A stretch of DNA of 21,785 bases, taken from positions 1-21,785 of IMG/VR virus record IMGVR_UViG_3300020385_000071; one strand, given 5' to 3'. Position 1 is the stretch's first letter. Every line of letters starts with the position of its first letter. Source of the DNA: a virus. Shown here piece by piece: positions 2,350-19,864 of this stretch. Under the pieces are notes generated by a model. That model worked only from the letters and a program-made list of their open reading frames with translations. It was not told the origin of the DNA and ran no database searches. Made by a program: the position numbers and the translations under genes.

Positions 2350-2381
2350 TTGACAAGCTAAAAATGCAACTTACGGTTTTA
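2350..2381 (+). promoter_or_regulatory. Repeated intergenic element, copy 1 (possible phage promoter)
   Basis: TTGACA (2350-2355), eight bases, ATGCAACTTACGGT (2364-2377), then a T-run. It lies just after the large terminase stop and before the connector/portal genes. The same arrangement with the same spacing recurs at 16645. TTGACA resembles a sigma-70 -35 box, but no convincing -10 box sits 16-18 bases downstream, so the element could be a phage-specific promoter, an activator site or a leader RNA motif. The repeat is directly visible; its function is inferred. Confidence 0.6.
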
Positions 2382-2404
2382 AAAAAACTGTATGAGGGCA
2401 GAAA

Positions 2405-2995
2405 TTGGCTAATTTATTTGACTCAGAGAATTACCCTTCTAATGTGCCAGAAACTTTAACGGTCGGTGATCGTTGGGCATGGAAACGAGAAGACATAGCA
2501 ACAGATTACATCCCTACAAGTTATACGCTAACTTATAGCTTCAGATTATTAAGTTCAGCCGCTACAGAAATATCCCTTGCTAGTTCTGTAATTACAGAAA
2601 GTTCAACTGCCTACATAGTAGAAGTGCCTAGTACAACTACAGCAGGTTACACCAAGGGCGATTACAGTTACCAGGAATACATTACTAACTCATCTTCACA
2701 AAGAGTAGTTGTTAGTTCAGGTTTTGTAACTTTAGAAGCTAATTTAGATGCTGACACGTCAGATCCTAGATCACACGCAAGAATAGTCTTTGATGCACTA
2801 GAAGCCATGTTAGAAAACAGAGCATCTATAGATCAATCTAGTATGAGTGTGGCAGGTAGATCTTTGAGCCGTATGACTCCAGAAGAAATACGCGATTGGT
2901 ACGAATACTACAGATACAAAGTTAATTTAGAGATAAAAAAAGACAGGATTAGTAAAGGTTTAGCCACAGGATCCTCAATAAAAGCGAGATTTTAG
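2405..2995 (+). CDS. Head-tail connector: Ig-like N-terminus with gpW-like C-terminus
   Basis: This 196-residue protein sits between the large terminase and the portal, where lambda encodes gpW, a small joining protein that closes the filled head. The last ~70 residues (HARIVFDALEAMLENRAS, then AGRSLSRMTPEEIRDWYEYY, then a basic tail) have the helix-strand-strand-helix spacing and Gly/Arg pattern of gpW. The first ~115 residues are Ser/Thr-rich beta sequence (TLTYSFRLLSSAATEISL) resembling an Ig-like or carbohydrate-binding decoration. The start is a TTG at 2405 with GAGGG six bases upstream; no ATG fits. The stop abuts the portal ATG (TAGATG). The gpW assignment is by pattern and position and is moderate. 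Confidence 0.65.
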   Translation: MANLFDSENYPSNVPETLTVGDRWAWKREDIATDYIPTSYTLTYSFRLLSSAATEISLASSVITESSTAYIVEVPSTTTAGYTKGDYSYQEYITNSSSQRVVVSSGFVTLEANLDADTSDPRSHARIVFDALEAMLENRASIDQSSMSVAGRSLSRMTPEEIRDWYEYYRYKVNLEIKKDRISKGLATGSSIKARF

Positions 2996-4480
2996 ATGCC
3001 CTGGTACAAAAGATTATTTGGAAGCCGTAAAAAAAGTAGACCTATCAACTTGCGTACATACGCAGGTGCTAACAAAGGTCGTTTATTTGCAGATTTTTTT
3101 AGCAATTCTAAGTCTGCTGATGCAGAACTGGCTCCTGCTTTACGCACATTACGCGACAGATCTAGAGAGTTAGCCAGGAACGACAGTTACGTTAAACGAT
3201 ATTTAGCGTTACTTTCAGCTAATGTTATAGGCACAAAAGGCATAAGACTCTCATGCAAGGCCAGGGATGATAACGGTCAGCTAGATATAATCGGCAATCA
3301 GATAGTAGAACGTGAATTTGCTAAATGGTGTAAGAAGGAAAGCTGTACTGTAACTGGCAAATTAAGTTTTATTGATGCACAAAAGCTATTTGTTGAAACA
3401 TTAGCAAGGGACGGAGAGTGTTTAGTTAAACACGTAAGGACTAAAGACAATCCTTATAACTATTCAATCCAGTTTATTGAAGCAGATCACTTAGACGAAG
3501 AATACGACTATAAATTGAAAGACAATGCGACTATTCGCATGGGCGTTGAAGTAAATGGTGTAGGTAAACCATTGGCTTATCATTTATTCAAGCAACACCC
3601 TTATGACTCTGCACAATACAGCACAGTGCAATCACAAAAGTACACCAGGATTCCTGCGGATGAATTGATACACGCTTACATACAAGAACGACCAGAAATG
3701 ACACGCGGTGTACCCTGGACTTCAACTGCTATGGATAAGATCCATACTTTAAACGGTTACAGGCAAGCAGAATTAACTGCATCAAGACTTGCGGCTTGTA
3801 AGATGGGTTTCTATGTTTCTCCTGGCGGCGATGGTTATGTAGGTGAAGACTACGAAGATACCTATTCGCCTATTATGGAAGCTGAACCAGGCACATTTGA
3901 ACAGCTACCTAGCGGCATGGACTTTAAGAGTTTTGAGCCTAACCACCCTACTTCTGCATTTGAAGCATTTGAAACAGCCATACTTAGAGGTATAGCAAGT
4001 GGTTTAAACATCAGTTATCACTCATTAGCTAACGATTTAAGTTCAGTTAATTACAGCTCTATTCGCGCAGGATCTTTAGAAGACCGCGCACAGTTTGGAG
4101 TTATACAAGAATTTGTAATTGCACACTTTATAGAGCCAATATTTAGAGAATGGCTAGAAATGGCTATGACAACTAATCAGATCCCTATGCCTATAACACG
4201 ATTTGATAAATTTGCAGACTCAACTACGTTTATTCCAAGATCCTGGAGTTATGTAGATCCACAAAAAGAGATCCAGGCTAACATCTTAGGTCTTAAATCA
4301 GGACAAGTGACCATGAGTGATATACAAGCGGCATACGGTCGTGATGTAGAAGAACTATTTGAACAGCACGACAGAGAAACTAAATTAGCAGAGCAATACG
4401 GTGTAACAACCGCATTTCAGCCTTTTGGCGCGCAAACAACACCAGTTGAACCAGAGTTACAAGGTGCAGATGATGAATAA
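2996..4480 (+). CDS. Portal protein, lambda gpB-like
   Basis: The portal forms the dodecameric ring at one head vertex through which DNA enters and leaves and on which the head assembles. The 494 residues fit the lambda gpB family. A basic N-terminus (MPWYKRLFGSRKK) is followed by the diagnostic ALRTLRDRSRELARNDSYVKRYL and LLSANVIGTKGIRLS. The core contains ARDGECLVKH, IQFIEADHLDEEYD and PADELIHAYIQERPEMTRGVPW. The C-terminal half has SYHSLANDLSSVNYSSIRAG and ends in an acidic tail. The ATG immediately follows the previous stop, indicating translational coupling. It is followed directly by the protease/capsid gene, as in lambda-like head operons. Confidence 0.95.
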   Translation: MPWYKRLFGSRKKSRPINLRTYAGANKGRLFADFFSNSKSADAELAPALRTLRDRSRELARNDSYVKRYLALLSANVIGTKGIRLSCKARDDNGQLDIIGNQIVEREFAKWCKKESCTVTGKLSFIDAQKLFVETLARDGECLVKHVRTKDNPYNYSIQFIEADHLDEEYDYKLKDNATIRMGVEVNGVGKPLAYHLFKQHPYDSAQYSTVQSQKYTRIPADELIHAYIQERPEMTRGVPWTSTAMDKIHTLNGYRQAELTASRLAACKMGFYVSPGGDGYVGEDYEDTYSPIMEAEPGTFEQLPSGMDFKSFEPNHPTSAFEAFETAILRGIASGLNISYHSLANDLSSVNYSSIRAGSLEDRAQFGVIQEFVIAHFIEPIFREWLEMAMTTNQIPMPITRFDKFADSTTFIPRSWSYVDPQKEIQANILGLKSGQVTMSDIQAAYGRDVEELFEQHDRETKLAEQYGVTTAFQPFGAQTTPVEPELQGADDE

Positions 4481-4607
4481 GCAGTTGAGGTGGGATCATT
4501 TACTACAAATGATGAGCAAAATACAGACGTTGGGCGCACTCTCTATCGTCTTGTTTTCTTTAGGACTAAGGGTTTTTGCTGTTCTGCAAGGGGTAAAAAG
4601 TGCCTGA
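4473..4607 (+). CDS. Possible 44-residue membrane protein between portal and protease
   Basis: A short open frame runs from ATG 4473 (or ATG 4470) to a stop at 4605-4607, overlapping the portal end by 8-11 bases and the next gene start by 8. AAGG at 4461-4464 could serve as ribosome site. The last 25 residues are strongly hydrophobic (TLGALSIVLFSLGLRVFAVL), a plausible single membrane span. It fills an otherwise empty gap of about 120 bases in a tightly packed operon, which is the main reason to believe it. I recognise no family; it could also be chance coding. Confidence 0.4.
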   Translation: MNKQLRWDHLLQMMSKIQTLGALSIVLFSLGLRVFAVLQGVKSA

Positions 4608-7098
4608 ATTACATAACAGAGAAACTAATTTTCCTGAATCTGGTGATGATCAGAAGATAAGTTTGCGTAATTCTAAATATAAACAGTTTGATTATGATTA
4701 TGTTTTAGATCTAAAAAACAATCATAAGAGTATCTGGAGCGCAGGTGGCAACACAAGGGGTAGTGATGCCTTTACCTTATGGGGTAGAGCCAGGCAAGGA
4801 TCTGAAACACAAGGCGTTCTAGATTGGATTAAAGAACGCGAAGCCTGGGCGGCCAGACACAGTGTTAATGATGGCAATGCTTTCGTTGGAACAGACAAAG
4901 AACCTAACGTGTCAAATGTTGCAGGCATTGTAGCCTTAATGAAATGGGGTGTAGTAAACCCAAAGTTAGGTACAGGTGGTATGAAAAAAATCATCAATCA
5001 GCTTAAACGTAAGTTAGCTGATAGAGGTGAAACAGTTTTTATAGAGGAATCTATAGAAAGCGAGCCTAACGGCTCTAATTTAAAACTTAAATCCAAGGAG
5101 ACAGATATGGACGAAAGGACGGAAGAACGTCACATATTAGCCGTAGAAGAAGATGCTGATTCTTACAACGTAAAGTTTGCAAAAGCAGAAATTGTAGAAG
5201 ACATAGAAGCTAATTCATACGGCGATGATGAAGACGAGGAAAAGCGTTTTGACAAAGACGAAACCAACTACCGTTCCATTGATTTATCCAGAGCAGAAAT
5301 GATTAATGAGGACAAACGAACTGTTCGCATTGCTCTTTCTTCTGAGGAACCTGTGGAACGTAGTTTTGGAATGGAGGTGCTAGACCATTCCCCTGGCTCA
5401 GTTGATATGAGTTGGGCAAGAAGCGGCAATATGCCTGTTTTACTAGACCATGACACGACTAGGCAAGTAGGTATTGTTGAGGATTTTAATTTAGACGGTG
5501 CTACTAATAGGACATTAGCAACGGTGCGTTTCGGAAGAAGCGAACTAGCACAAGAAACCTGGAACGATGTTTTGGACGGTATTAAGCGTTCAGTCAGTGT
5601 CGGCTACAGAATTAACTCTATGGTAAGAGACGAATCTGCGGAAGACACAACCTATAGGGCCAATTGGACTCCTATGGAAGCAAGCCTAGTTTCACTCCCT
5701 GCTGACACAAACCCTATGGTGGGTGTTGCCAGGTCAAAAGATAGTGCAGAGGCGCAAGCCCCTGTTGATATAAACAATTCTATTAAGGAAAAAACAATGG
5801 AAGAAAATAAAACTCCAGAAGTTGATTTAGATGCTCTTAGATCTGAAACCGCAGTAAGCGTTAGATCTGAAGTTGCTAAAGAAGCAAAGGAAATACTTGC
5901 ATTAGCTACTAAACACCATAAACGTGATTTAGCTGATGTATCAATAGCGGAAGGACATTCATTAGAGCAATTTAGAGGCATCCTTCTTAATCAAATAGCA
6001 GACGATAAGCCACTAGAAACACCAGTAGCAGAAGTTGGACTAAACGACAGAGAAAGAGGAAGTTATTCCTTTTTAAATGCGATTAGAGCGGCATCAAGCG
6101 GTGACTGGTCAAACGCAGGACTAGAAAGAGAGATCTCTAATGAAATCGCTTCTAGAACTGGTAAAGAAGCTAGAGGTTTCTACCTACCTATGGACATAGG
6201 TTGGGGGCAAAGGGATCAAACTGTTGGTAGTAACACAGGTGGTGGGTTCTTAAAAGGAACAGAACACCTGGCTAATGAGTTCATCGGTGAAGTCTATGCA
6301 AACTCAGTTGTTGCACAATTAGGCGGCAGAGTTATGACTGGTTTACAAGGTGATATAGCGATTCCAAAGCTATCTGCATCTGTGACCAACACAGCTTTTG
6401 TTGCAGAAGGCGCGGCACCAAGTGAAGGCGCGGCAACTTTTGCGCAAGTCACAATGGCACCTAAGACTTTAGCCACATACGTTGACTACACAAGAAAACT
6501 AGCATTGCAATCGGATCCTTCTGTTGAGCAAATACTTAGAAATGACGTAGTACAAACTATGGCGGCTAAGATAGACCAAGTTGCTATAAACGGCGGCGGT
6601 TCTAATGAGCCTTCTGGTATCTTGCAAGAATCAGACACTAATGTTGTTGCCATAGCCACTAACGGTGGTGCTATTACATATGCCAAAGTTGTAGCCATGG
6701 AAGCGGCTATAGCGGCTGATAATGCCTTAACTGGTACTTTAAACTTTGCAACAACTCCTGGTGTACAGGGTGCAATGAGACAAATACCAAGACAGGGTTC
6801 AGGTGTTGAAGGTAATTTCATTCTAAACGATAGTAACTCTATCTTAGGACACAACGTAACTGTTTCAACTAACGTACCTAGTACCCTAACTAAAGGATCT
6901 ACTTCTGGTACTTGCCATGCACTTATCTTAGGTGACTTTGGCCAAGTAATGATGGGATTTTGGAGCGGAGTCGATGTAGTTGTGGACTCTTCAACATTAA
7001 GCACTTCTGGTGGAACTAGAATCGCGTTCTTCCAAGATGTTGATGTTGCAGTAAGAATACCTAACGCTTTCGCGGCGATTAAGGATATTACTGTCTAA
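4600..7098 (+). CDS. Fused head protein: N-terminal domain, prohead protease, HK97-type major capsid protein
   Basis: One 832-residue frame encodes three modules. Residues ~20-145 are an unrecognised domain (KSIWSAGGNTRGSDAF, KWGVVNPKLGTGGMKKI). Residues ~170-385 are an HK97-type prohead protease that trims the inside of the prohead; the likely catalytic His is H284 (PVLLDHD) and Ser S331 or S333 (KRSVSVGYR), followed by MEASLVSLPADTNP. Residues ~400-832 are an HK97-fold major capsid protein: an acidic, coiled delta-like N-terminus, GGGFLKGTEHLANEF, TMAPKTLATYVDYTRKLALQS, GGGSNEPSGIL and an ending of VDVAVRIPNAFAAI. The start is GTG 4600 behind AAGGGG. In-frame ATGs at 5107 and 5797 have strong ribosome sites, so separate protease and capsid chains are likely too. 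Protease-capsid fusions are known in other phages; the three-module form is less common. Confidence 0.93.
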   Translation: MPELHNRETNFPESGDDQKISLRNSKYKQFDYDYVLDLKNNHKSIWSAGGNTRGSDAFTLWGRARQGSETQGVLDWIKEREAWAARHSVNDGNAFVGTDKEPNVSNVAGIVALMKWGVVNPKLGTGGMKKIINQLKRKLADRGETVFIEESIESEPNGSNLKLKSKETDMDERTEERHILAVEEDADSYNVKFAKAEIVEDIEANSYGDDEDEEKRFDKDETNYRSIDLSRAEMINEDKRTVRIALSSEEPVERSFGMEVLDHSPGSVDMSWARSGNMPVLLDHDTTRQVGIVEDFNLDGATNRTLATVRFGRSELAQETWNDVLDGIKRSVSVGYRINSMVRDESAEDTTYRANWTPMEASLVSLPADTNPMVGVARSKDSAEAQAPVDINNSIKEKTMEENKTPEVDLDALRSETAVSVRSEVAKEAKEILALATKHHKRDLADVSIAEGHSLEQFRGILLNQIADDKPLETPVAEVGLNDRERGSYSFLNAIRAASSGDWSNAGLEREISNEIASRTGKEARGFYLPMDIGWGQRDQTVGSNTGGGFLKGTEHLANEFIGEVYANSVVAQLGGRVMTGLQGDIAIPKLSASVTNTAFVAEGAAPSEGAATFAQVTMAPKTLATYVDYTRKLALQSDPSVEQILRNDVVQTMAAKIDQVAINGGGSNEPSGILQESDTNVVAIATNGGAITYAKVVAMEAAIAADNALTGTLNFATTPGVQGAMRQIPRQGSGVEGNFILNDSNSILGHNVTVSTNVPSTLTKGSTSGTCHALILGDFGQVMMGFWSGVDVVVDSSTLSTSGGTRIAFFQDVDVAVRIPNAFAAIKDITV
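5095..5109 (+). promoter_or_regulatory. Internal ribosome binding site and in-frame start for the protease module
   Basis: A perfect AAGGAG (5095-5100) lies six bases before ATG 5107, in frame with the long head gene (Met170). The start falls exactly at the boundary between the N-terminal domain and the protease. Initiation here would give a separate protease-capsid chain of about 663 residues, beginning MDERTEERHILAVEEDA. The signal is visible; use in the cell is inferred. Confidence 0.65.
5785..5799 (+). promoter_or_regulatory. Internal ribosome binding site and in-frame start for the capsid module
   Basis: AAGGA (5785-5789) lies seven bases before ATG 5797 (Met400), in frame with the long head gene and just after the protease domain. 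Initiation here would yield a stand-alone 433-residue major capsid protein starting MEENKTPEVDLDAL, a normal length for an HK97-type capsid protein with its delta domain. This could supply the hundreds of capsid copies needed relative to protease. Confidence 0.7.
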
Positions 7099-7110
7099 TT
7101 ATTTTGATTT

Positions 7111-7130
7111 GAGGGGAGTTCGCTCCCCTC
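7111..7130 (+). promoter_or_regulatory. UUCG-loop RNA hairpin after the capsid gene
   Basis: A perfect 8-bp stem GAGGGGAG/CTCCCCTC encloses the tetraloop TTCG, 12 bases after the capsid stop. No T-run follows; the next bases lead into the AAGGAG of the following gene, so a simple intrinsic terminator is unlikely. It most likely protects the 3' end of, or lowers read-through from, the abundantly needed capsid message. The structure is visible; the role is inferred. Confidence 0.6.
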
Positions 7131-7147
7131 TCTCAAAGGAGCAAACA

Positions 7148-7339
7148 ATGGCACAAATAAAAATGGAACAGGATGCCTACATTAGAGGAATCATGCGTAA
7201 GAAAAATGACGTTGTAGAAGTGTCTTCTGCGGAAGCAAGACAATTCATAAGCAACGGCACAGCAAGCGATGTTTCTGATAAACCAGAAAAGACAGCTACT
7301 AAAGCAGTCAAAAAGGCACCTAGCAAAAAGGCTAAGTAA
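7148..7339 (+). CDS. Small basic head-region protein, unknown function
   Basis: This is a 63-residue protein starting at ATG 7148, six bases after a perfect AAGGAG (7136-7141); an in-frame upstream start at 7109 would translate through the hairpin and is rejected. The first ~40 residues (AYIRGIMRKKNDVVEVSSAEARQFISNGTAS) look like a small beta/alpha module seen in many phage head operons. The tail is Lys/Ala-rich (KAVKKAPSKKAK). Its position between the capsid and connector genes matches that of lambda FI-type accessory proteins, but I see no true FI similarity. Its stop overlaps the next ATG by one base. Confidence 0.75.
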   Translation: MAQIKMEQDAYIRGIMRKKNDVVEVSSAEARQFISNGTASDVSDKPEKTATKAVKKAPSKKAK

Positions 7340-7647
7340 TGGTACTTGAATCGTCAGCAGATTTAGCAGGTTACTTTGATACAGATGCACATGGTACTGC
7401 GGCCACTATCACTATAAATGGTAGCGGCTCTAGTATTAACGTCATTTTAAACAAAGAATACTTTGCTATAGATCCTGGATTGGGCATGGAAGTTGAAGGA
7501 ACACAACCTGTATGCACAGGAAGATCCGCAGACATGACCAATGTAGAGATCGGCGATACGATTCTAATCAGTTCTGTTACTTATAATATTATTAATGTTC
7601 AGCCAGATGGCGTAGGTGTTACTGCGTTAGTCTTAGAGGAGCAATAG
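7339..7647 (+). CDS. Head-tail connector, FII-like
   Basis: This 102-residue protein is probably the head-completion or attachment protein that joins the tail to the filled head, the lambda gpFII role. The C-terminal part (MTNVEIGDTILISSVTYNIINV, DGVGVTALVLEEQ) has the Gly-Asp turn, Tyr strand and closing 'DG-G-hydrophobic-L' pattern of that family. The front (TATITINGSGSSINVILNKEYFAI) is a beta strand with a long loop. It overlaps the preceding gene by one base (TAATG) and is followed by the tail-terminator candidate, as expected for the connector position. Confidence 0.65.
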   Translation: MVLESSADLAGYFDTDAHGTAATITINGSGSSINVILNKEYFAIDPGLGMEVEGTQPVCTGRSADMTNVEIGDTILISSVTYNIINVQPDGVGVTALVLEEQ

Positions 7648-8090
7648 TGTCACACGTCAGGCAACAATTAAGAGAAAGAGCGGCTACAACCCTTACAGGG
7701 CTAACCACTACTGGAACTAAAGTCTACCAATCAAGGGTATACCCTCTTGGTGCGGCTAATTTGCCTGGTTTGTTGATCTATACCAAATCTGAGGATAGCG
7801 AAGCGGTAACTATGTCAGGGGCGAGAACACTTTTAAGAAACTTATCTTTAGTTATTGAAGGCTATGTAAAAGCAGTTAGTAATTATGACGATACTGTGGA
7901 CACGATAGCAAAAGAAGTAGAAACGGCTATGGGTAATGATGTCACGCTTAACAGCCTGGCTAAAAACTCTTATCTAGAATCTACTGAAATTGAATATGAC
8001 GGCGAAGGTGAAAAACCATTAGCTGTGATATCACTAACGTACAGAGTTGAATACATGACTAAAGAAAATGCACCACAAACGGCGGTGTAA
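7647..8090 (+). CDS. Tail terminator protein, gpU-like
   Basis: This 147-residue protein has the size and position of a tail terminator, the hexameric ring that caps the tail tube and joins it to the head. The sequence starts with a helix (VRQQLRERAATTLTGLT). It continues with beta segments typical of the family: VYQSRVYPLGAANLPGLLIYTKSED, LRNLSLVIEGYVKA, then YDDTVDTIAKEVETAM, and LAVISLTYRVEYMT. The GTG start (7647) overlaps the previous TAG by one base and has AGGAG a few bases upstream. It is followed by the tail tube gene. Assignment rests on pattern and order. Confidence 0.7.
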   Translation: MSHVRQQLRERAATTLTGLTTTGTKVYQSRVYPLGAANLPGLLIYTKSEDSEAVTMSGARTLLRNLSLVIEGYVKAVSNYDDTVDTIAKEVETAMGNDVTLNSLAKNSYLESTEIEYDGEGEKPLAVISLTYRVEYMTKENAPQTAV

Positions 8091-8099
8091 GGAGTAGAT

Positions 8100-8237
8100 A
8101 TGGCAGTTTTATATTCTCCAAATGGCAAAGATAGCATTGATGCACACGTAAGCCAGGTGGAGTATTTAATTAGTAAAGGTTGGACTGAGGAGAAATCCAA
8201 GTCTGTAAGTAAAAAAAATAAAAATAGCGAGGAATAG
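8100..8237 (+). CDS. Small tail-region protein of 45 residues, unknown
   Basis: An open frame starts at ATG 8100 with AAGGAG at 8089-8094 and ends at TAG 8235-8237, three bases before the tail tube gene. The protein begins MAVLYSPNGKDSIDAHVSQV, contains EYLISKGWT and ends in a Lys/Ser-rich tail. Short proteins with a terminal 'GW' turn and charged tail are frequent beside phage structural genes, but I recognise no defined function. The strong ribosome site and fit between neighbours support a real gene. Confidence 0.7.
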   Translation: MAVLYSPNGKDSIDAHVSQVEYLISKGWTEEKSKSVSKKNKNSEE

Positions 8238-8239
8238 AA

Positions 8240-8629
8240 ATGGCAACACACGCAGGAAAAGAAGGCTTAGTAAAAGTAGGCTCAAACACAGTAGCGGAAG
8301 TTCGTACATGGACTATCAATACAAATGCTGACGTTATAGAAGACACAGCTATGGGAGATACGGCAAGAACGTACCTTTCTGGTTTGACTTCTGCTGATGC
8401 ATCAGTAGATCTATTTTGGGATGAGACAGATACAAATGGACAGGTTGCATTAGCACCTGGATCTTCTGTAACTTTAGTCTTATATCCAGAAGGATCAACA
8501 AGTGGTGATACTTATTACACTGGCACAGCAATCGTAACTTCAAAATCCATAACAGGATCTTTTGATGGCATGGTTGAAGCTAGTATAAGTGCTACCTACA
8601 CAGGCGCAGTAGCAACGGCAACGGTGTAA
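8240..8629 (+). CDS. Major tail tube protein, gpV-like
   Basis: This 129-residue protein is the likely subunit of the stacked hexameric rings of the flexible tail tube. It begins with a typical tail-tube opening (GKEGLVKVGSNTVAEVRTWTIN, then DVIEDTAMGDTARTYLSGLTS). It continues with alternating beta strands (ASVDLFWDE, VTLVLYPEG, TAIVTSKSITGSFDGMVEASISATYTG). It carries no obvious extra Ig domain. It lies directly before the tail-assembly chaperone and tape measure, the standard order. Confidence 0.85.
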   Translation: MATHAGKEGLVKVGSNTVAEVRTWTINTNADVIEDTAMGDTARTYLSGLTSADASVDLFWDETDTNGQVALAPGSSVTLVLYPEGSTSGDTYYTGTAIVTSKSITGSFDGMVEASISATYTGAVATATV

Positions 8630-8632
8630 GAA

Positions 8633-8968
8633 ATGAAAGCAATTGAGAGTGCAAAAGTTCATTTCAGTGGATTAGCAATAGAAATGGTGGAAGTCCCAGA
8701 ATGGGGAGCTGACGGCGTACCTTTAAGTGTTTATTACAAGCCAATGACGTTGGCTGAAAAGAATAAACTTTATAAGTTAGCGCAGAATGATGATCTAGAG
8801 ATTATGGCTTATACGTTGATCTATAAAGCATTAGATTCAGACGGTAATAAGATATTTGATCTAGGTGATAAGCGAGCATTAATGCATGAGGTTGATGCTG
8901 ATGTTGCGGCAGAACTAGCCGCTAAGATCATGTCTGGTGCATCTATTGATGAACAAAAGGGAAAGTAA
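8633..8968 (+). CDS. Tail assembly chaperone, G-like (upstream frame)
   Basis: This 111-residue protein lies between the tail tube and tape measure and plays the lambda gpG role: it coats the tape measure and recruits tube subunits. The sequence (YYKPMTLAEKNKLYKLAQ, DLEIMAYTLIYKALDSDGNKIFDLGDKRALMHEV, DVAAELAAKIM) matches the usual chaperone pattern, including the 'DADGNPLFT-like' turn. It ends in DEQKGK and a TAA at 8966. The last two sense codons are within the heptamer GGGAAAG, so part of the ribosomes should shift -1 and make a longer product. Confidence 0.85.
   Translation: MKAIESAKVHFSGLAIEMVEVPEWGADGVPLSVYYKPMTLAEKNKLYKLAQNDDLEIMAYTLIYKALDSDGNKIFDLGDKRALMHEVDADVAAELAAKIMSGASIDEQKGK
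8959..8965 (+). promoter_or_regulatory. Programmed -1 ribosomal frameshift site (G GGA AAG)
   Basis: The heptamer G GGA AAG, read in the frame of the upstream gene, lies immediately before its TAA stop. It is the X-XXY-YYZ slippery sequence used in lambda gene G/T. A second slippery-type heptamer, A AAG GGA, overlaps it at 8956-8962. The -1 frame is open from here for 51 codons and encodes a T-like segment. The site is directly visible; slippage is inferred from the well-known siphovirus mechanism. Confidence 0.85.
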
Positions 8969-9120
8969 GAGAGGACAATGATTTTTTTGCTCAGTACGCT
9001 TTAGCAGAAAAACTAGGTCTGACGGTATCAGATCTACAAGAAAAAATGTCATTGTCCGAGTTTAACGGTTGGATTGCTTATTTGGAGTATAAGAGCGAAT
9101 TAGAAAAAAGAAATGGCTAG
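8965..9120 (+). CDS. Tail assembly chaperone, T extension reached by -1 frameshift (GT fusion)
   Basis: The -1 frame continues from the slippery site as VREDNDFFAQYALAEKLG, through LTVSDLQEKMSLSEFNGWIA and YLEYKSELEKRNG to TAG 9118-9120. The pattern 'hydrophobic-SEFxxWxAYLEYK' is typical of T-like extensions of tail assembly chaperones, which bind tube subunits. No good independent start exists, so it is most likely made only as a fusion of about 162 residues with the G-like protein. Its end overlaps the tape measure ATG at 9113. Confidence 0.82.
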   Translation, partial: VREDNDFFAQYALAEKLGLTVSDLQEKMSLSEFNGWIAYLEYKSELEKRNG

Positions 9121-10615
9121 CAAAGACTATAGATTTAATATAACCGCGCAGAACAAGACTCAGCAGGCGTTTAGTCAAGTCAATCGCAGTTTAGATAAAA
9201 CCTCAAAAAGTATGGCTTTTATGAAAAAGTCTTTTGTTGGTTTGATAGGTACTGCGGCTATAGCTAGCTTTGGTAGGCAAACATTACAAACAGCCGATGA
9301 TTTAGCTAAAGTTTCATCATCTATAGGTGTAAGCGCAGAGTTTTTACAAAGATTTCAATTTGCGGCTGAACAATCTGGTGTAGCCGCAGAAGGTTTTGAT
9401 AAGAGTTTACGTTTCTTCTCTAAAACTATGGGTGAAGCAACAATGGGCTTAGGTCTTGGTCTAGATGCAATACAACAATTAGGCGTTTCTTTAAAAGACA
9501 CAGAAGGAAATACAAAATCAATAGATGCTCTTTTTATAGAAATGATGCACACCTTAGATGGTGTAGAGAACGCAACAGAAAAGGCAGGTTTGGCAACAAA
9601 ACTATTTGGTAGGGCAGGCATACCAATGGTCAACATGCTACGCGATGGACATCAAGCCATGTTAGATCTTGCGGAAGTTGCGCCAGGTGTGTTGACAGAC
9701 GAAGACACAAAACGAGCTGAAGAATTTAATGATGCTATGAATGTATTGGCACGTACAGTACGCGGCCCAGTTCAATCAGCAATAATTTCGTTAGTTAATT
9801 TACCTTCTACAATAAAAGAAACATTAACAGATGTATTTTTTGACAATGATGCTTTTAACCCACAACAACTAGAACAATTTTTTGGAAGAGTAAACGCAGG
9901 GGTAACTAAGACAGGTGAAGAATTAAAAATAGTAGATAAAAGAGTTATTGCATTTGCAGAAAGAATTAACGAAAGCCTTAAAACGCCTACAGAAAAAATT
10001 GCAGATTTTAGAGAAGAATTAGAAGAAGCCGTACAAGCAGGCATATTTGACAAAAATAAAGTAGAAGCGGCAGTAGCCGTATTTAGTGAATCAGTTACTA
10101 AAGGCGTAGAAGACACAATGACTGTTGTAAAACAGTTTGAAGACACGATAGAAGGATCTTTAGAAGGCGCATTTACAGATTTCTTTGATAGAACTAGTGA
10201 AGGCTTTATGAACATGAACACTTTATTTAAAACTGTTATTGATTCAATAATACAAGAAGTTTTGAGACTAGCAGTTATTAAGCCTATTGTTGATTACATA
10301 ATGGGTGGGCCTGTAGCAACTATATCAAGTATATTTGGTAAAGCATCTGGCGGCCCTGTGACTGGTGGTAGAACTTATATGGTTGGAGAAAGAGGCCCAG
10401 AATTATTTACTGCACCAGGTAACGGCAACATAGTACCAAATAACAAAATGGGCATGGCAGGTGGCGGCACAACAAATGTAAACATTACTTACGACATCAA
10501 GGCATTTGACTCAAAAGATGCTACAGCCGCTATTGCAGAACAAGCACCAACAATCGTTGGAATAGTAGAACAATCATTTAACAAACGCGGCAGACGAGGG
10601 CCATTAGGAACATGA
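9113..10615 (+). CDS. Tape measure protein
   Basis: This protein sets tail length and probably exits with the DNA into the host. At 500 residues it is short for the family, implying a short tail. The N-terminus is helical (FNITAQNKTQQAFSQVNRSLDKT) followed by a hydrophobic stretch (SFVGLIGTAAIASFG, ~residues 40-54). The region 60-200 contains the common phage motif LAKVSSSIGVSAEFLQRFQFAAEQSGV. The C-terminal part has a second hydrophobic helix (VLRLAVIKPIVDYIMGG) and the lambda gpH-like ending YMVGERGPELFTAPGNGNIV. It begins inside the end of the T extension and overlaps the next gene by four bases (ATGA). Confidence 0.93.
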   Translation: MASKDYRFNITAQNKTQQAFSQVNRSLDKTSKSMAFMKKSFVGLIGTAAIASFGRQTLQTADDLAKVSSSIGVSAEFLQRFQFAAEQSGVAAEGFDKSLRFFSKTMGEATMGLGLGLDAIQQLGVSLKDTEGNTKSIDALFIEMMHTLDGVENATEKAGLATKLFGRAGIPMVNMLRDGHQAMLDLAEVAPGVLTDEDTKRAEEFNDAMNVLARTVRGPVQSAIISLVNLPSTIKETLTDVFFDNDAFNPQQLEQFFGRVNAGVTKTGEELKIVDKRVIAFAERINESLKTPTEKIADFREELEEAVQAGIFDKNKVEAAVAVFSESVTKGVEDTMTVVKQFEDTIEGSLEGAFTDFFDRTSEGFMNMNTLFKTVIDSIIQEVLRLAVIKPIVDYIMGGPVATISSIFGKASGGPVTGGRTYMVGERGPELFTAPGNGNIVPNNKMGMAGGGTTNVNITYDIKAFDSKDATAAIAEQAPTIVGIVEQSFNKRGRRGPLGT

Positions 10616-11214
10616 GCGGAACATTCCCAAGTAGCCCTGCCCCACTCACTATAGAAGTACAAAGTTTTGAACCTACCCTACTTAGTGTTGCTAACAACCT
10701 ACGAAGACAAGCTAGATCTAGAGGTGGGCAAAGATGGTTATTCAAATGCACATTCCCACCATTAGCCAGGGCAGATTTTGATCCTATATTTGCTTTCAGT
10801 GTTGCACAACGCGGACAGTTTGAAACCTTTACCTGGGTTCCTAATACAATAGGCACAACAAGAGGTGCATCTAGTGAATCACCAGTAGTAAATGCGGCAT
10901 TAGCGGCAGGAGTTTCTACAGGCACAGTAGATGGCTTGACTGCCAGTACATCTAACATTCTAAGATCTGGTGATTTCTTTAAATTCTCAGGCCACACAAA
11001 AGTTTATATGGTTACTTCTGATATGAGCAGTAACGGATCTGGCGTTGCTACCCTTAATTTTTCTCCTAGATTAGAAAGCGCAGTTGCAGATAATGAGACT
11101 CTTACCATTGCTTCTGTGCCTTTTCAGGTGGCTTTCGCCAGTGACGTTAGAGGTTACACAACAGATCCTACGGCCTACTATCAATATGAAATAGATCTTA
11201 TAGAGGTTACATAG
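10612..11214 (+). CDS. Minor tail protein in the gpM / distal tail position
   Basis: This 200-residue protein directly follows the tape measure and precedes the L-like gene, the place of lambda gpM, which forms the ring between tail tube and tip. Its opening (SFEPTLLSVANNLRRQARSRGGQRWLFKCTFPPLARADFDPI) resembles distal-tail proteins of marine siphophages, where 'GGQRW' and 'F-PPL-R' recur. The middle (about 75-160) looks like an inserted beta domain, and FQVAFASDVRGY, YYQYEIDLIEV closes the fold. I cannot name the family with certainty; the virion role follows from position. Confidence 0.7.
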   Translation: MSGTFPSSPAPLTIEVQSFEPTLLSVANNLRRQARSRGGQRWLFKCTFPPLARADFDPIFAFSVAQRGQFETFTWVPNTIGTTRGASSESPVVNAALAAGVSTGTVDGLTASTSNILRSGDFFKFSGHTKVYMVTSDMSSNGSGVATLNFSPRLESAVADNETLTIASVPFQVAFASDVRGYTTDPTAYYQYEIDLIEVT

Positions 11215-12999
11215 ATGGCAAACAGAGGAAGTACAACTGCTTTCCAAACTGAGATCAAAAAAGATCAATCACACCCTTTGCATCTGATAGAGGTGTATTT
11301 AGACAGTGCCACTTATTACGTAACAGACAATTACAGGGATGTTGTTTACGATAGTAATACCTATGATGCTTTAGGTTTCTTTTTAAACTTTGCAAACATA
11401 GAGGAAAGCACAGAAGTTACAGCATCTAGAATCACACTTAGCTTGTCTGGTGTTGATCAGCAATACACTAATCTGTTTTTAACAGAAAATTACGTTGATA
11501 GACGTGTAGTTATTAGAAAAGCATTTATCAATACTTCAAATGCACTTATAGCAGATCCAGTCACTATATTTGATGGCAGATTAGACTCACCTGTTATTAC
11601 AGAAGATGCGGACACAGGTTTAGCCACAATAGCTGTTGTTGCTTCAAATCAATTTGTAGATTTTGAAAAGACTCCAGGGCGATACACTAACCATGAAAAC
11701 CAACAGCTACATTATCCAGGTGATAACGGTTTTATTTACGCTTCACAAATAATAAAAGACATAGTGTGGGGCCAAGAATTTAACGCAGGTAACAGAGTAG
11801 AAGGCGCAGGATCTTTAACTGGTGAATTAACTGGTGCTTCTTACACAAACACTGGCGGTATAGGATCAGAATCATTAGTAGTTACTAATCCTTGGGGCAA
11901 CCCAATATTAATAGATCCAGATCTGGGCGATAGAGTTTATGTTAATGTTGCAGAGCATGGATTAAGCACAGGTGATACCGTTGACATAGATGGTGCTGAA
12001 AGCACAACTGAAGTACCTTCAACGTCAATAAACGGTGAACAGACAGTAACCGTAGCAGATCCAAATGCTTTTTATTTTGATATTGATGAAGATGTAACAG
12101 TTGTTGAAAACTTTACAGGCGGTAGAAGTTTAACTATTTACGGTAAGCCTCCTGTTACAACTGGTATCAAAACAAATACTACAACCAATAAAGAAAATGA
12201 AGTTGAGATATTAGATCCTACTGAAACTATCAAAGTTGGCCAATTTATAGAGTTTGAAAACACAGGTGATATTGGCGGCATTACTGAACAGCATTTAATA
12301 GGTAAAAAACACGAAGTAAAAGAAGTAAACAGCAACGGTGTTAGAACAGCAAAGGTAGCAATAGTAAAACAAGAAAAAACAACATCACCTCCTATCTCAA
12401 CTGATACAACAGTAGCAAACACTGTCACAGTCAACATTGCGGATCATGGGTTAAATGTAGGCGAAACTGTAGTTATCGCAGGATCGGCCGCCGTAGGTGG
12501 TGTAGCCGCATCAAGTATTAATGGAACTAAAACAGTAACATCAATAAAAAGTAATGATGCTGTAAATATAACAGTAGCAGATTCAGTAACCAGTACCGTG
12601 AATAACGGTGGAGGTGACGGCGTTACTATAGATGGTTTGTCACCCAATAGCCCATTTGTAGCAACGACTTCAGGAAGTACGACCGTCACCTTTCACCACA
12701 CTGCGCATGGATTAGCCGTAGGAGATACAGTAGTGATAATAGGATCTACTGATGTAGGTGGTGTGCCTGCTTCCGATCTTAACAAATCACACACAGTAGC
12801 TAGTGTGCCAAATGCCAACAGTTTTACTGTTACGGTAGCCACAGCCGCTACCTCTACAGCAGTAGGCGGCGGTGCTTATACCTATGTGAAATTACCTGTT
12901 AAAGCAACAAGCGTTGCCAGGGGCGGTAAGAAAAATACAACTATCAATATTAGCGCGGTAAAACCACAAGAAAACATTAGATTTGTAATAGGGGAATGA
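11215..12999 (+). CDS. Tail-tip / baseplate hub protein in the gpL position, with inserted beta repeats
   Basis: This 594-residue protein occupies the gpL place. The first ~185 residues are hub-like: HLIEVYLDSATYYVTDNYRDV, then FANIEESTEVTASRITLSLSG, DPVTIFDGRLDSPVI and SNQFVDFEKTPGRYTNHENQ, ending GFIYASQIIKDIVWG. A long Thr/Val/Gly-rich region follows. It carries three copies of a 'HGL-x2-G-(D/E)-TV-x-I-x-G' unit, near residues 242, 405 and 487; the last two continue with GGVxAS and a closing repeat. This kind of 'ubiquitous tail' repeat occurs in many phage tip proteins. The last ~40 residues resume a hub-like end. It touches the hydrolase gene by ATGA. Confidence 0.7.
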   Translation: MANRGSTTAFQTEIKKDQSHPLHLIEVYLDSATYYVTDNYRDVVYDSNTYDALGFFLNFANIEESTEVTASRITLSLSGVDQQYTNLFLTENYVDRRVVIRKAFINTSNALIADPVTIFDGRLDSPVITEDADTGLATIAVVASNQFVDFEKTPGRYTNHENQQLHYPGDNGFIYASQIIKDIVWGQEFNAGNRVEGAGSLTGELTGASYTNTGGIGSESLVVTNPWGNPILIDPDLGDRVYVNVAEHGLSTGDTVDIDGAESTTEVPSTSINGEQTVTVADPNAFYFDIDEDVTVVENFTGGRSLTIYGKPPVTTGIKTNTTTNKENEVEILDPTETIKVGQFIEFENTGDIGGITEQHLIGKKHEVKEVNSNGVRTAKVAIVKQEKTTSPPISTDTTVANTVTVNIADHGLNVGETVVIAGSAAVGGVAASSINGTKTVTSIKSNDAVNITVADSVTSTVNNGGGDGVTIDGLSPNSPFVATTSGSTTVTFHHTAHGLAVGDTVVIIGSTDVGGVPASDLNKSHTVASVPNANSFTVTVATAATSTAVGGGAYTYVKLPVKATSVARGGKKNTTINISAVKPQENIRFVIGE

Positions 13000-13403
13000 A
13001 GGATTTAGAAACAATAGCATTTGCACAAAAGGAACTAGATACACCGTTCGCCTGGGGTACTAACGACTGCAATACCTTAGTGCTTAAATACTTAGACGAA
13101 GTATGGGGCAATGATGTTTTGAGTATGATCTATGGCAAATACAAAACTAAGATAGGTGCTGTCAAATTTAACAAAAAACAAAAATACACCTTTACTGATG
13201 GCATTGTAGAAGAACTAGGTGCTATAAGATTGCCACCAAAGTTAGCCAGGACTGGTGACATATTAATTGTGCATACCAAAGGTTTTGAAATGGGGCATAT
13301 TTGTTTAGGAACTAAAATATTATCTGTGATAGAAGACAGTAAAACATCTATCACCAGAATTGATGGTTTTGATTTTTTTAATTGGGCATTGAGGATTAAT
13401 TAA
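12996..13403 (+). CDS. NlpC/P60-like tail cell-wall hydrolase (gpK position)
   Basis: This 135-residue protein has the layout of phage tail NlpC/P60-type peptidases, which cut peptide cross-bridges in the host wall during DNA entry. TPFAWGTNDCNTLVLKYL (residues ~16-33) carries the probable catalytic Cys (C26) in a 'WG-x2-DC' context. RTGDILIVHTKGFEMGHICLG (~84-104) supplies the 'GD' and the likely catalytic His (MGH). The third catalytic position is not obvious. It lies between the L- and J-position genes exactly as gpK does in lambda and overlaps both neighbours (ATGA and TAATG). Confidence 0.8.
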   Translation: MKDLETIAFAQKELDTPFAWGTNDCNTLVLKYLDEVWGNDVLSMIYGKYKTKIGAVKFNKKQKYTFTDGIVEELGAIRLPPKLARTGDILIVHTKGFEMGHICLGTKILSVIEDSKTSITRIDGFDFFNWALRIN

Positions 13404-16400
13404 TGGGACAGGCAGTAGCTTTTGTAAAAGGAACAATTGAGTTTTTTACTTTATTATTTTCTTATGCTACTGGTAATTACATAGCAGGCCAGGTACTAGG
13501 CTATATAGCCGCAGGTGCTTTTTTTAATGCTGTTGGTGGTGTTATACAAGGTTTATATGAAGTTCCTAAAATTGGTTTAGCACAGCAAGGCGCAACAGTT
13601 CTAAGCAACAGCAGATCTAGTTCTGCACCCTTACCTGTTATATATGGCGCAAGGCGTGTTGGTGGAATACAAGTATTTGTAGCTACTTCTCCAGGCTATC
13701 CAGTGCCAGGAGATCCAGACTCAGTAGAAGAGATAGCTGATAATAGATACCTAAACATGGTCATAGCATTGTGTGAGGGGCCAATAGGAGCTGTCAAAAA
13801 AGTTTATGCCAATAACGTAGAAATATGGCCGCAAATGGATTCAAGATTTGACGGTAAGGCTTATATAAGTGTGCATAGAGGAGAAACAACACAAGCGGCT
13901 GATGCAGAATTGGTAAATGTAGCTAACGGCAGTGAAGCACCTTTTGTATGGGATTCTACTTACAAATTAAGCGGTGTGGCTTATTTGTATGTACAGCTAG
14001 AAGCTGATAATGAGGTATGGGGATCTGGTGTGCCTACAATCAATGCAGATATATTAGGCAAAGTAGTAGAAGACACTAGAAATACTTATTCTGGAACTGC
14101 ATTTTCTATAGACAGATACAGTAACAACCCTGCCCTTTGCATAAAAGATTATCTGACTAATTCTACTTACGGCAAGGGTATATCAGGAACGCAAATAAGC
14201 ACATCGTCATTTGAAGCGGCGGCAAACTATTGTGATGAACTAATTACTATTACAAAAGACGATGGTACGACTATCACACAAAAAAGATTTACCATGAATG
14301 GCGTAGTAACTGTTGGCGAATCTAGTATGAATATACTGAATAAAATGCTGACATCTTGTAGGGGTATGCTTGTTTTTAGTGGTGGTTTTTACAAATTAAT
14401 TATTGATAAAGCAGAAACAGCTTCATTGACGTTTGATGAATCTACCATCATGCCTAATTTTAATATTACGTTACCTGGTAAACAAAGTTTGGCCAACAGA
14501 GTTCAAGCAAACTTCTTTAATCCTCAGAATGAGTGGCAAGCTGATTTTGTATATTCAGAAAGCAGTACATACAAGACACAAGATAATGATCTTTTATTAG
14601 AGCGCAAAATAGAACTGCCTTTTACTGCTGATTATTACCAGGCTCAGTACATTGCAGAACAAACATTAAAGCAAAGCAGACAAGGCATCATCATTGATTT
14701 TAGAACGCTACAAGAGGGCTTGTTGGCAGAAGTGGGCGATGTCATATATATAAAATTAGATGCGCCTGGTTGGTCTAGTTTAAATAGTGGCGCAGGTAAA
14801 TTATTTAGAGTTATACAAATAGGCATAGAAGCAAACGATGAAATTTCTATAGTTGCTAGGGAATACGATGCTGATGTCTATACACCAGGAACAGCAAAAA
14901 CATTTGATACAGCACCAAATACTGCCCTTCCTGCTTTAGATGTCGTAAATACACCAAAAGGCTTAACAGCAACAGAGACTTTATTGTTTAACGATCCTAA
15001 AGTGACTAACAGAGTTAGTTTGTCATGGAAGGCCACTACATCACCTTACATAAAACATTACGAAGTAGCTTACATACAAGGTGCGAAAGGCAAAACTTAT
15101 ATACAAGCAGGAACGGTAACTGGCACACAATTTACAATAGATAATTTAGATCCTAGTGTTTATCAATTTGCTATTAGGGCAGTAAATACCGCAGGCTTTC
15201 AATCTAATTATGCAACGGTACTTATGAACGCTAAAGGCACTTCTATACTGCCTGCCGTTAATGCTCCTGGTATAACAAGCGTAGTAGAATCCTTAGTGTC
15301 AACGACAGCAGGTTCAGGTGTAAAAGCTAAAGCAGTTTTGTCCTGGGTTGCACAAAGCAACACAGACTGGGAAGCGTTGGGTGTGTATATAGAAAGTTAT
15401 GAGGTTGAATATAAGCTGACCTCTGAATCTACAAACTTTGAACGGTTAGGATCTGCAACAGGCACTTTTTTTGAATTCTTTGATATTGCACCCGCGAATT
15501 ATGATTTTAGAGTACGTGCTGTAAATGATGCAGGAATCAAATCACCTTACGCAACTACTACAGCAGAGATAACAGGACTGAGTGCCGCACCTGCTAACGT
15601 AACTAACTTTTATTTAAGAGCAGAAAGCACACAAGCCAACTTGTCCTGGACACCCACTACAGATCTAGATGTTAAAGTTGGTGGTACGTTTGAGATAAGA
15701 CACAGCGTGGCAACAAGCGGTGCAACTTGGGGTACGTCATTAAAAATAGGATCTGATGTACCAGGATCTTCTAACGCGGCTTCAATGCCATTATTGGTAG
15801 GTACTTATTTGATCAAAGCTGTAGATTCAACAGGTAATAAATCAGTTGGCGCAACAAGCATTGTTAATACCGTTTCTGCTTCACTTTTTGACAAAAGAAG
15901 CCAGGCTACTATTACAGATACAACCTTTGCAGGCACTAAAACAAATATGGTTGTTGATGCTGATAGCGGCGTACTTAAATTTGAAGCTGATACGCTTATA
16001 GATAGCAAGACAGAAAATATTGATACCTGGGGTTTATTTGATTCTATTGGTGGTGTTGATACGTCTGGATCTTACGAATTTGCAGACAAGATAGATCTAA
16101 CGCGTGTTATGTCAGCCACACTATCTGGAAGCGTGACATTTGCTACGGTTGCTACGTCAGATATATGGGATAACAGAGCAGGCAATATAGATACCTGGGA
16201 TGCTATAGATGCCAATACATTTGATGATGTAAACGCTACTTTGTTTATTGCTTCTACCAATGATGATCCTGCAAGCGGTGGTGCAACTTGGTCAGCCTAT
16301 CAAGAATTTACGATTGGTAACTATTACGGCAGAGGTCATAAGTTCAAACTAGAATGTACTACAGGCGATACTACGCACCAAATCAACGTATCGCAGTTAG

Positions 16401-16648
16401 TTGCAAAAGCAGAGGTTTACTTTAGATTTGAATCAGAAACAGGAACTACAGCTACAGGCGGTACAGCATTTACTTACGACACGCCTTTTTTAGCGACACC
16501 ACAGATAGCCATTACAGCTAACGATATGGCTACAGGTGATTACTATGCGATTACTAGCAGTTCTGCTACAGGTTTTACACTTAGGTTTTATAACGCAAGC
16601 GGATCTGGAATAGCCAGAACTGCTTACTACTTAGCAAGGGGATATTGA
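13403..16648 (+). CDS. Tail-tip attachment protein, gpJ-like, with fibronectin-III-like domains
   Basis: This 1081-residue protein is probably the central tail-tip protein that closes the tail and contacts the host. The first ~60 residues are hydrophobic (FFTLLFSYATGN, VLGYIAAGAFFNAVGG), reminiscent of a gpI-like segment fused to J. The conserved J-type core follows: SAPLPVIYGARRVGG, VIALCEGPIGAVKKVYANN, SGVAYLYVQLEAD, CIKDYLTNSTYGKGI, LTSCRGMLVFSGGFYKL and FSITARE-like IVAREYDADVY. Around 515-825 are two clear and one weaker fibronectin III-like domains (VSLSWKATTSPYIKHYEVAY, FAIRAVNTAGFQS; VLSWVAQ, FRVRAVNDAGIKS). The C-terminal ~250 residues are beta-rich and may bind the receptor or fibre. 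Confidence 0.9.
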   Translation: MGQAVAFVKGTIEFFTLLFSYATGNYIAGQVLGYIAAGAFFNAVGGVIQGLYEVPKIGLAQQGATVLSNSRSSSAPLPVIYGARRVGGIQVFVATSPGYPVPGDPDSVEEIADNRYLNMVIALCEGPIGAVKKVYANNVEIWPQMDSRFDGKAYISVHRGETTQAADAELVNVANGSEAPFVWDSTYKLSGVAYLYVQLEADNEVWGSGVPTINADILGKVVEDTRNTYSGTAFSIDRYSNNPALCIKDYLTNSTYGKGISGTQISTSSFEAAANYCDELITITKDDGTTITQKRFTMNGVVTVGESSMNILNKMLTSCRGMLVFSGGFYKLIIDKAETASLTFDESTIMPNFNITLPGKQSLANRVQANFFNPQNEWQADFVYSESSTYKTQDNDLLLERKIELPFTADYYQAQYIAEQTLKQSRQGIIIDFRTLQEGLLAEVGDVIYIKLDAPGWSSLNSGAGKLFRVIQIGIEANDEISIVAREYDADVYTPGTAKTFDTAPNTALPALDVVNTPKGLTATETLLFNDPKVTNRVSLSWKATTSPYIKHYEVAYIQGAKGKTYIQAGTVTGTQFTIDNLDPSVYQFAIRAVNTAGFQSNYATVLMNAKGTSILPAVNAPGITSVVESLVSTTAGSGVKAKAVLSWVAQSNTDWEALGVYIESYEVEYKLTSESTNFERLGSATGTFFEFFDIAPANYDFRVRAVNDAGIKSPYATTTAEITGLSAAPANVTNFYLRAESTQANLSWTPTTDLDVKVGGTFEIRHSVATSGATWGTSLKIGSDVPGSSNAASMPLLVGTYLIKAVDSTGNKSVGATSIVNTVSASLFDKRSQATITDTTFAGTKTNMVVDADSGVLKFEADTLIDSKTENIDTWGLFDSIGGVDTSGSYEFADKIDLTRVMSATLSGSVTFATVATSDIWDNRAGNIDTWDAIDANTFDDVNATLFIASTNDDPASGGATWSAYQEFTIGNYYGRGHKFKLECTTGDTTHQINVSQLVAKAEVYFRFESETGTTATGGTAFTYDTPFLATPQIAITANDMATGDYYAITSSSATGFTLRFYNASGSGIARTAYYLARGY

Positions 16649-16676
16649 CAATATGAATATGCAACTTACGGTCTTT
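16645..16676 (+). promoter_or_regulatory. Repeated intergenic element, copy 2 (possible phage promoter)
   Basis: TTGACA (16645-16650) overlaps the stop of the tail-tip gene. After eight bases comes ATGCAACTTACGGT (16659-16672) and then CTTTT. Both blocks and their spacing equal the copy at 2350. Downstream AT-rich sequence includes TATAAC near 16688, but not at standard distance from TTGACA. The element precedes the tail-fibre gene and, with it, the run of genes that ends in the curli cluster. Confidence 0.6.
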
Positions 16677-19092: not shown

Positions 19093-19443
19093 ATGGATGA
19101 TGCTATTTTATTAGTGTCAGAATTAGGCGTTCCAACCGCCGCACTAATAGCCGTAGGATTCTTTTTATACAAACTTATATTTAAGATCATTGACGGCATG
19201 ACTGAAAAGGTAGATGTCTTAGATGATAAGGTGCAAGCAAGCCTGGACACTATGGAAGAAAGGCTAACAACAAAACTAGATTCGCAATACGGCATCATAG
19301 TTAGTTTGATTGACAGAGTGAGAATGATAGATCAATCATTAATTAGAAATGATGTACTTCTAAAGACTTTAGTAAAGATGCCAGAGTTGATAGACACGAA
19401 CGAAATAACCAAGGCACAGAAAAATGATCAAAGGAAAGATTAG
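19093..19443 (+). CDS. Small membrane protein with N-terminal span and coiled coil (holin-like form)
   Basis: This 116-residue protein has a hydrophobic N-terminal segment (LGVPTAALIAVGFFLYKLIF, ~residues 11-31) followed by an extended amphipathic helix (IIDGMTEKVDVLDDKVQASL, TMEERLTTKLDSQYGIIVSL). It ends in a charged tail (ITKAQKNDQRKD). It starts one base after the preceding stop and its last 20 bases contain the start of the csgF-like gene, so the two are coupled. It could be a holin-like protein or an inner-membrane partner of the curli-type machinery downstream; sequence alone does not decide. Confidence 0.6.
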   Translation: MDDAILLVSELGVPTAALIAVGFFLYKLIFKIIDGMTEKVDVLDDKVQASLDTMEERLTTKLDSQYGIIVSLIDRVRMIDQSLIRNDVLLKTLVKMPELIDTNEITKAQKNDQRKD

Positions 19444-19864
19444 TTTATTACTGCTATTCCCTACCCTGGTTCTAGCAGATGAAATGGTGCATGAGTTTAA
19501 ATCACCTTCCTTTAGTGGTGTCGGTACATCTAGTCATTACTTAACAATAGACTCACAAGAAACAAGCAGAAAACAAGCTATCCAGGACGAGATAGAAGCG
19601 TTACAAGATGAAATAGAACGCGAACAATCTAACACCGTAGAAGCCAGGTTTATGCGAAACCTTACTTCCAGGATCTATGCCAACATTGCCAGGCAAGTAG
19701 AAGATGCGTTGTTTGGTGAAGATACTAACAAAAGCGGATCTATGGAGTTAGACGGCAACCTAATTGAATACGAGATAACAGATGAAGAAGTTAAAGTTAC
19801 TATCATCAGCGAAGATGGAACAGAAACTACCGTTATTGTCCCTATCGGTGGTTTTACTTTCTAG
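19424..19864 (+). CDS. csgF: CsgF-like curli assembly protein, secreted
   Basis: CsgF is a periplasmic/outer-surface accessory that plugs into the CsgG pore through its N-terminus and couples curlin secretion to nucleation. This 146-residue protein has a signal peptide (MIKGKISLLLLFPTLVLA) and a mature start DEMVHEFKSPSFSGVG that matches the CsgF insertion motif (in E. coli, GTMTFQFRNPNFGG). A helix follows (ETSRKQAIQDEIEALQDEIE), then FMRNLTSRIYANIARQV (CsgF 'AIQSQILGGLLSNI' region) and a terminal beta sheet (LIEYEITDEEVKVTIISED, ETTVIVPIGG). Length is close to the bacterial protein. It overlaps the membrane-protein gene by 20 bases and carries the CsgG signal peptide in another frame at its 3' end. 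Confident at family level. Confidence 0.85.
   Translation: MIKGKISLLLLFPTLVLADEMVHEFKSPSFSGVGTSSHYLTIDSQETSRKQAIQDEIEALQDEIEREQSNTVEARFMRNLTSRIYANIARQVEDALFGEDTNKSGSMELDGNLIEYEITDEEVKVTIISEDGTETTVIVPIGGFTF

Follow-up and report, generated by a model that had tools for sequence, protein, structure and literature searches.

What does a sequence repeated at two gene boundaries of a phage genome do, and what recognises it? The window, i.e. the whole stretch of 21,785 bp of viral DNA analysed here, carries such an element. By comparison with related phages it would be, with a probability of about 0.8, a promoter of the sigma70 type, recognised by the host RNA polymerase and heading each late transcription unit of a phage lineage.

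Two exact copies in the window

The pattern TTGACA-N8-ATGCAACTTACGGT has exactly two matches in the window, both without mismatch (Table 1), for a chance expectation of 0.01 (dinucleotide shuffles). The original prediction of two copies, TTGACA plus a 14-base block with the same 8-base spacing, is borne out, and so is its statement that the flanks differ: the spacer block is common to copies whose flanks are unrelated. Copy 1 lies in a gap of 59 nt; it begins 5 nt after the terL stop, which ends at 2345, and its last base is 27 nt upstream of the TTG start at 2405. In copy 2 the TGA stop of a J-like tail gene (16646-16648) falls within TTGACA; the gap here is 64 nt, and the copy ends 40 nt upstream of the fibre ATG at 16713. 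These gaps are not the two longest non-coding ones of this kind, as had been claimed, since in the mechanical ORF list those at 4481-4599 and 8969-9112 exceed them. The second of these (144 nt) follows the ORF 8633-8968, has another frame open through it (window 8633-9113) and probably encodes the downstream portion of the tail-assembly chaperone, reached by a frameshift.

The predicted leaders measure about 21 nt for copy 1 and about 34 nt for copy 2, both with a Shine-Dalgarno sequence; in a relative, a GAGG of this type sits 7 nt before the corresponding TTG start. The fibre gene is closely trailed by small genes, csgF, csgG, a curlin-like gene and a gene with a FecR domain, with no further copy of the element. 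From csgF onwards (window 19424-21785) the csgF, csgG, curlin-repeat-like and FecR-domain genes stand together as an uninterrupted module of the fibre operon. Pelagimyophages and one OM43 phage were already known to carry genes of the curli type (PMC9004378). A reading of the repeated sequence as an RNA element was rejected, Rfam giving no match to it.

Table 1. Positions in the window of the two copies, their parts and the genes that follow them.
Feature	Position	Strand	Remarks
Copy 1 of the element (TTGACAAGCTAAAAATGCAACTTACGGT)	2350..2377	+	putative promoter of the connector-portal-capsid-tail (late) operon
Copy 1, -35 hexamer TTGACA	2350..2355	+	TTGAC in 23/23 distinct copies
Copy 1, conserved spacer block ATGCAACT (about -20 to -13)	2364..2371	+	common to copies with unrelated flanks
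Copy 1, -10 hexamer TACGGT (T-12, A-11, T-7 kept)	2372..2377	+	16 bp past the -35
Predicted short 5' leader	2384..2404	+	Shine-Dalgarno GAGGG before the TTG at 2405; inferred TSS
Head-tail joining protein (PHROG 5774)	2405..2995	+	first gene 3' of copy 1
Copy 2 of the element (TTGACAATATGAATATGCAACTTACGGT)	16645..16672	+	putative promoter of the fibre-to-curli operon
Copy 2, -35 hexamer TTGACA	16645..16650	+	alignment of 23 copies
Copy 2, conserved spacer block ATGCAACT	16659..16666	+	alignment of 23 copies
Copy 2, -10 hexamer TACGGT	16667..16672	+	relatives: TACCGT, TAACTT
Tail fibre/spike with Peptidase_S74 chaperone domain	16713..18290	+	first gene 3' of copy 2
csgF	19424-19864		within the fibre operon
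csgG	19782-20603		within the fibre operon

Conserved and variable positions of the element

The conservation of each position was read from an alignment of 23 distinct copies; L063, the only one whose spacer measures 17 bp, was placed in it as if the spacer were 16 bp. In the -35, TTGAC is present in 23/23 copies and the full TTGACA in 13/23. The spacer measures 16 bp throughout, L063 alone excepted; the eight bases that follow the -35 are weakly conserved and the TGCAACT block after them strongly. In the -10, T-12 is kept in 23/23 copies, A-11 in 22/23 and T-7 in 15/23, while the centre is free to vary: the hexamers found in this slot are TACGGT, TACCGT, TAGCTT, TAACTT, TAGTGT, TAGCGT, TACAAA, TACAAC and TATAAA. 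At the place of copy 1 the relatives have TAGCTT, TATTTT or TAGTGT. An invariant -12/-11 with a free centre is the pattern expected from contact by sigma region 2. When L063 is re-aligned with its 17-bp spacer its -10 becomes TATTTT, and the TGCAACT block shifts together with the -10, to which it stays attached.

The statement that no normal -10 box exists at the expected distance turns out to be half right because TACGGT occupies the place of the -10 in both copies, 16 bp from the -35, and relatives have TAnnnT at 16-17 bp. What stands of it is that TACGGT has only 3/6 bases of TATAAT (TATAAA has 5 and TATTTT 4), a consensus from which the promoters of the host may differ. Neither site of the window is listed by a plain sigma70 scan at the standard cut-off, which misses both because of its -10 cut-off. 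An extended -10 (TG at -15/-14) is absent; since AC occupies these positions in both window copies and nearly all relatives, the spacer block is not an extended -10 motif.

Distribution of the element in related phages

The exact 20-base pattern was found in 31 stretches of IMG/VR contigs, and each lies at one or other of the two gene boundaries that carry it in the window. The original prediction had called for further copies in a complete genome or in relatives, and this test did not go against it: many relatives hold both copies and several a third one. Relatives by TerL or portal carry diverged versions at the same place, i.e. TTGACAACCTAAAAATGCAACTTAGCTT, TTGACAAACCAAAAAACGCAACTTATTTT (17-bp spacer), TTGACAACCCTTAAATCGCTCATAGTGT, TTGACATTATCTCAATGCACCATAGTGT and TTGACTTATTTGTAGAAAACTTTAGCGT. 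Among 84,980 bacterial and archaeal genomes the exact pattern has 0 matches, which supports its description as phage-specific. A close terL relative, sought in the same set, was not found either, and on these two results a host or prophage origin was rejected. A relaxed 15-base pattern matched viral contigs mostly in the coding sequence of unrelated phages; therefore only intergenic, syntenic matches were counted.

Disparities appear beyond this group. The TGCAACT block is absent from the sister clades G013, G014, G015 and G017. G017 (identical sequence in L079/L081) and L210/L211 have a TTGAC[AT]-N16-TAGnGT site after terL, with no second copy of it in the sequence examined.

The TerL of the window and that of Roseobacter phage CRP-821 share 50% identity, and the late genes stand in the same order. 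Thus the window belongs in or near the CRP-822-type family, which comprises Roseobacter phages CRP-821 and CRP-822 and uncultured members (PMC12629253). Low-GC members of this family are predicted to infect SAR86 or SAR11, and the main text of the paper that describes it mentions neither promoters nor curli genes (PMC12629253). In contrast to the window, CRP-821 has no intergenic gap and no element at the two corresponding places. Because CRP-821 lacks the element and the sister clades lack the block, the element is a feature of one lineage in a wider group.

A third copy before the lysis genes

G007 is a contig of 33,360 bp; its 99-bp end repeat leads us to take it for a complete genome, 33,261 bp in length. 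In this genome and in G002 (35 kb) a third, divergent copy (e.g. TTGACGTTCTGAAAATGCAACTTATAAA) precedes a holin-like gene (PHROG 1544, no named function) and the endolysin. This lysis copy is also present in G003, G005, G006 and further contigs. A weight matrix finds exactly three sites in G007 and in G002, anything further scoring no better than shuffled sequence does. Those of G007 score 37, 33 and 30 bits, against 13 for the next best and a shuffle maximum of 7-17; as the matrix was built from all copies, these sites included, the informative value is the gap to the next match. The pattern TTGACN9[AT]TGCAACTTA was counted 3 times in G007 and never in 150 genomes simulated with a second-order Markov model.

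The late strand of G007 encodes packaging, head, tail, fibre, curli-like and lysis functions, and a divergent early block encodes a nuclease, a methyltransferase and a primase/helicase. All three copies are on the late strand, each heading a different module, and the early regions of G007 and G002 contain none. As expected of a late-promoter class, the element thus stands before late operons (head, fibre/curli and lysis) but not early ones in both genomes.

In nearly all variants of the lysis copy an ATG lies about 6-7 nt past the -10, without a Shine-Dalgarno sequence; the exception is the divergent variant L116/L165/L317, whose ATG is further downstream. Many other genes of the same genome do have a Shine-Dalgarno. 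This position of the ATG and the missing Shine-Dalgarno predict a leaderless transcript, and the lysis copy probably yields a leaderless or nearly leaderless mRNA: a start 7-8 nt past the -10 would fall at or beside the A of the ATG. Whatever the hexamers, the constant distance from -10 to ATG is evidence in favour of a promoter.

The element as a late promoter

The copies, their positions, spacing and conserved bases, and their absence elsewhere in the genome of the complete relative are observed directly. From them we infer that transcription would initiate at the element, that it would act late and that its spacer block would be recognised by sigma itself or by some phage regulator. The host RNA polymerase would engage the TTGACA -35 and the TAnnnT -10 across a 16-bp spacer whose downstream half is TGCAACT. 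Copy 1 would drive the connector/head/tail operon and copy 2 the fibre/curli operon, while the third copy, outside the window in relatives, would head the lysis cassette. Very probably, this is how the head, tail-fibre and lysis genes of an uncultured group of marine phages are turned on late in infection. The late promoter originally proposed, with its second copy heading the fibre-to-curli operon, is consistent with all the comparative evidence.

The element shares with the sigma70-type promoters used by phages its TTGACA, the spacer of 16-17 bp, the near-invariant T-12 and A-11, and T-7 in the head and fibre copies. It differs from them by the GC-rich centre of its -10, by the conserved TGCAACT and by recurring at late modules alone. 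At -7 most lysis copies carry A or C, in which they resemble the alphaproteobacterial sigma70 promoters that lack T at this position (PMC8407463), whereas both window copies have T there. The element is real and widely conserved, yet a switch of an already familiar kind whose mechanism is likely ordinary.

Under the promoter reading the element would control three operons per genome in this lineage. The curli module would be tied to the tail-fibre transcription unit, i.e. to late rather than early expression. A precise promoter, predicted starts and a block on which regulators can be tested would give a handle on late gene control in uncultured marine phages that carry curli genes.

What reads the spacer block

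The conserved TGCAACT block is the one point of special interest. It may possibly be an activator site. The odds of a phage-encoded activator fall slightly below even, and a dedicated phage regulator is doubtful, if well worth entertaining. More specifically, an unrecognised phage late regulator might read TGCAACT, act on the sigma70-RNA polymerase from inside the -35/-10 spacer and coordinate the head, fibre/curli and lysis operons, with the leaderless mRNA of the holin-like gene; we hold this to be rather unlikely.

One candidate for such a regulator is a 61-aa HTH protein, encoded just before terS in relatives, for which the block would be an operator or activator site. Its gene is conserved in relatives within the TGCAACT clade. 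A second target of this protein might be the divergent early promoter region, where TTTGCAACAAGT is found, as TGCAAC is common to the late block and to the conserved block of that region. But a match of 6 bases is close to chance, and the link between late and early regions is weakened because L317/L165 keep the late block and have no TGCAAC in their early region. Homologues are moreover found in L321 and L078, the genome of the latter (G017) being without the element. An operator or activator site of this kind is rather improbable.

Alternatively the element could be a Q-type late promoter, the block being the site from which an antiterminator loads on RNA polymerase at a promoter-proximal pause and allows read-through of the late operon. 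The Q-binding element of phage 21 lies within the -35/-10 region, with key bases at -21 and -13 (PMC6606751), close to the span of the block here (about -20 to -13); a precedent therefore exists for a factor that binds within the spacer. Like the lambdoid PR' promoters with a Q-binding element (phage 21, lambda; PMC6606751), the element has a phage-specific sequence between its -35 and -10. Unlike them it has a single block rather than direct repeats, the N8 half of its spacer being variable, and three copies per genome instead of one promoter. Searches with PF03589 and PF06530 found no Q-family gene in the window, G002 or G007 (positive controls matched). Just 3' of either copy there is no terminator-like site on the + strand, and no consistent -10-like pause sequence is found downstream. 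An antiterminator is thus improbable.

A 183-aa early protein considered as a Q-like regulator was rejected, being family-wide and present also in genomes without the element. Its AlphaFold model (pLDDT 80) has no match to solved structures at E<=0.001, and otherwise matches only uncharacterised viral proteins and one annotated "terminase small subunit".

That the element is no promoter at all, and is instead a site for packaging, replication, recombination or RNA processing which falls between genes by chance, could be suggested by the proximity of copy 1 to terL. This is very improbable: the copies stand at three module starts, always along the direction of transcription, the element has no inverted symmetry and matches no RNA family, and in nearly all lysis copies the distance to an ATG without Shine-Dalgarno is fixed. 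Finally, a promoter for a phage-encoded single-subunit RNA polymerase or a phage sigma factor would account for a long lineage-specific sequence conserved at several operons, but is hardly credible given the sigma70-like frame (-35/16/-10, variable -10 centre), the lack of an early ORF of RNA polymerase size in the complete relative (the largest is the 667-aa primase/helicase) and the lack of a Sigma70_r2 match in a profile search whose controls matched (the RNA_pol profile PF00940 had no match, nor did its control).

Other promoter-like sites in the relatives

Starts without a Shine-Dalgarno just 3' of promoter-like sites recur in these genomes: at the holin-like gene (L045, around 9844-9880), at the first early gene (L044:1044) and at the HTH gene (L044:5237). 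This recurrence suggests that leaderless mRNAs may be common in the lineage. The 61-aa HTH gene (L044:5237-5419, + strand) lies just before the late packaging genes and is preceded by the best-scoring sigma70-like site of the plus strand of its genome. Several relatives also share the block TATACTTTGCAACAAGTA, which lies between their divergent early genes (L044:931-1044 in G007). Plausible promoters on each strand overlap this block, which has the look of an operator.
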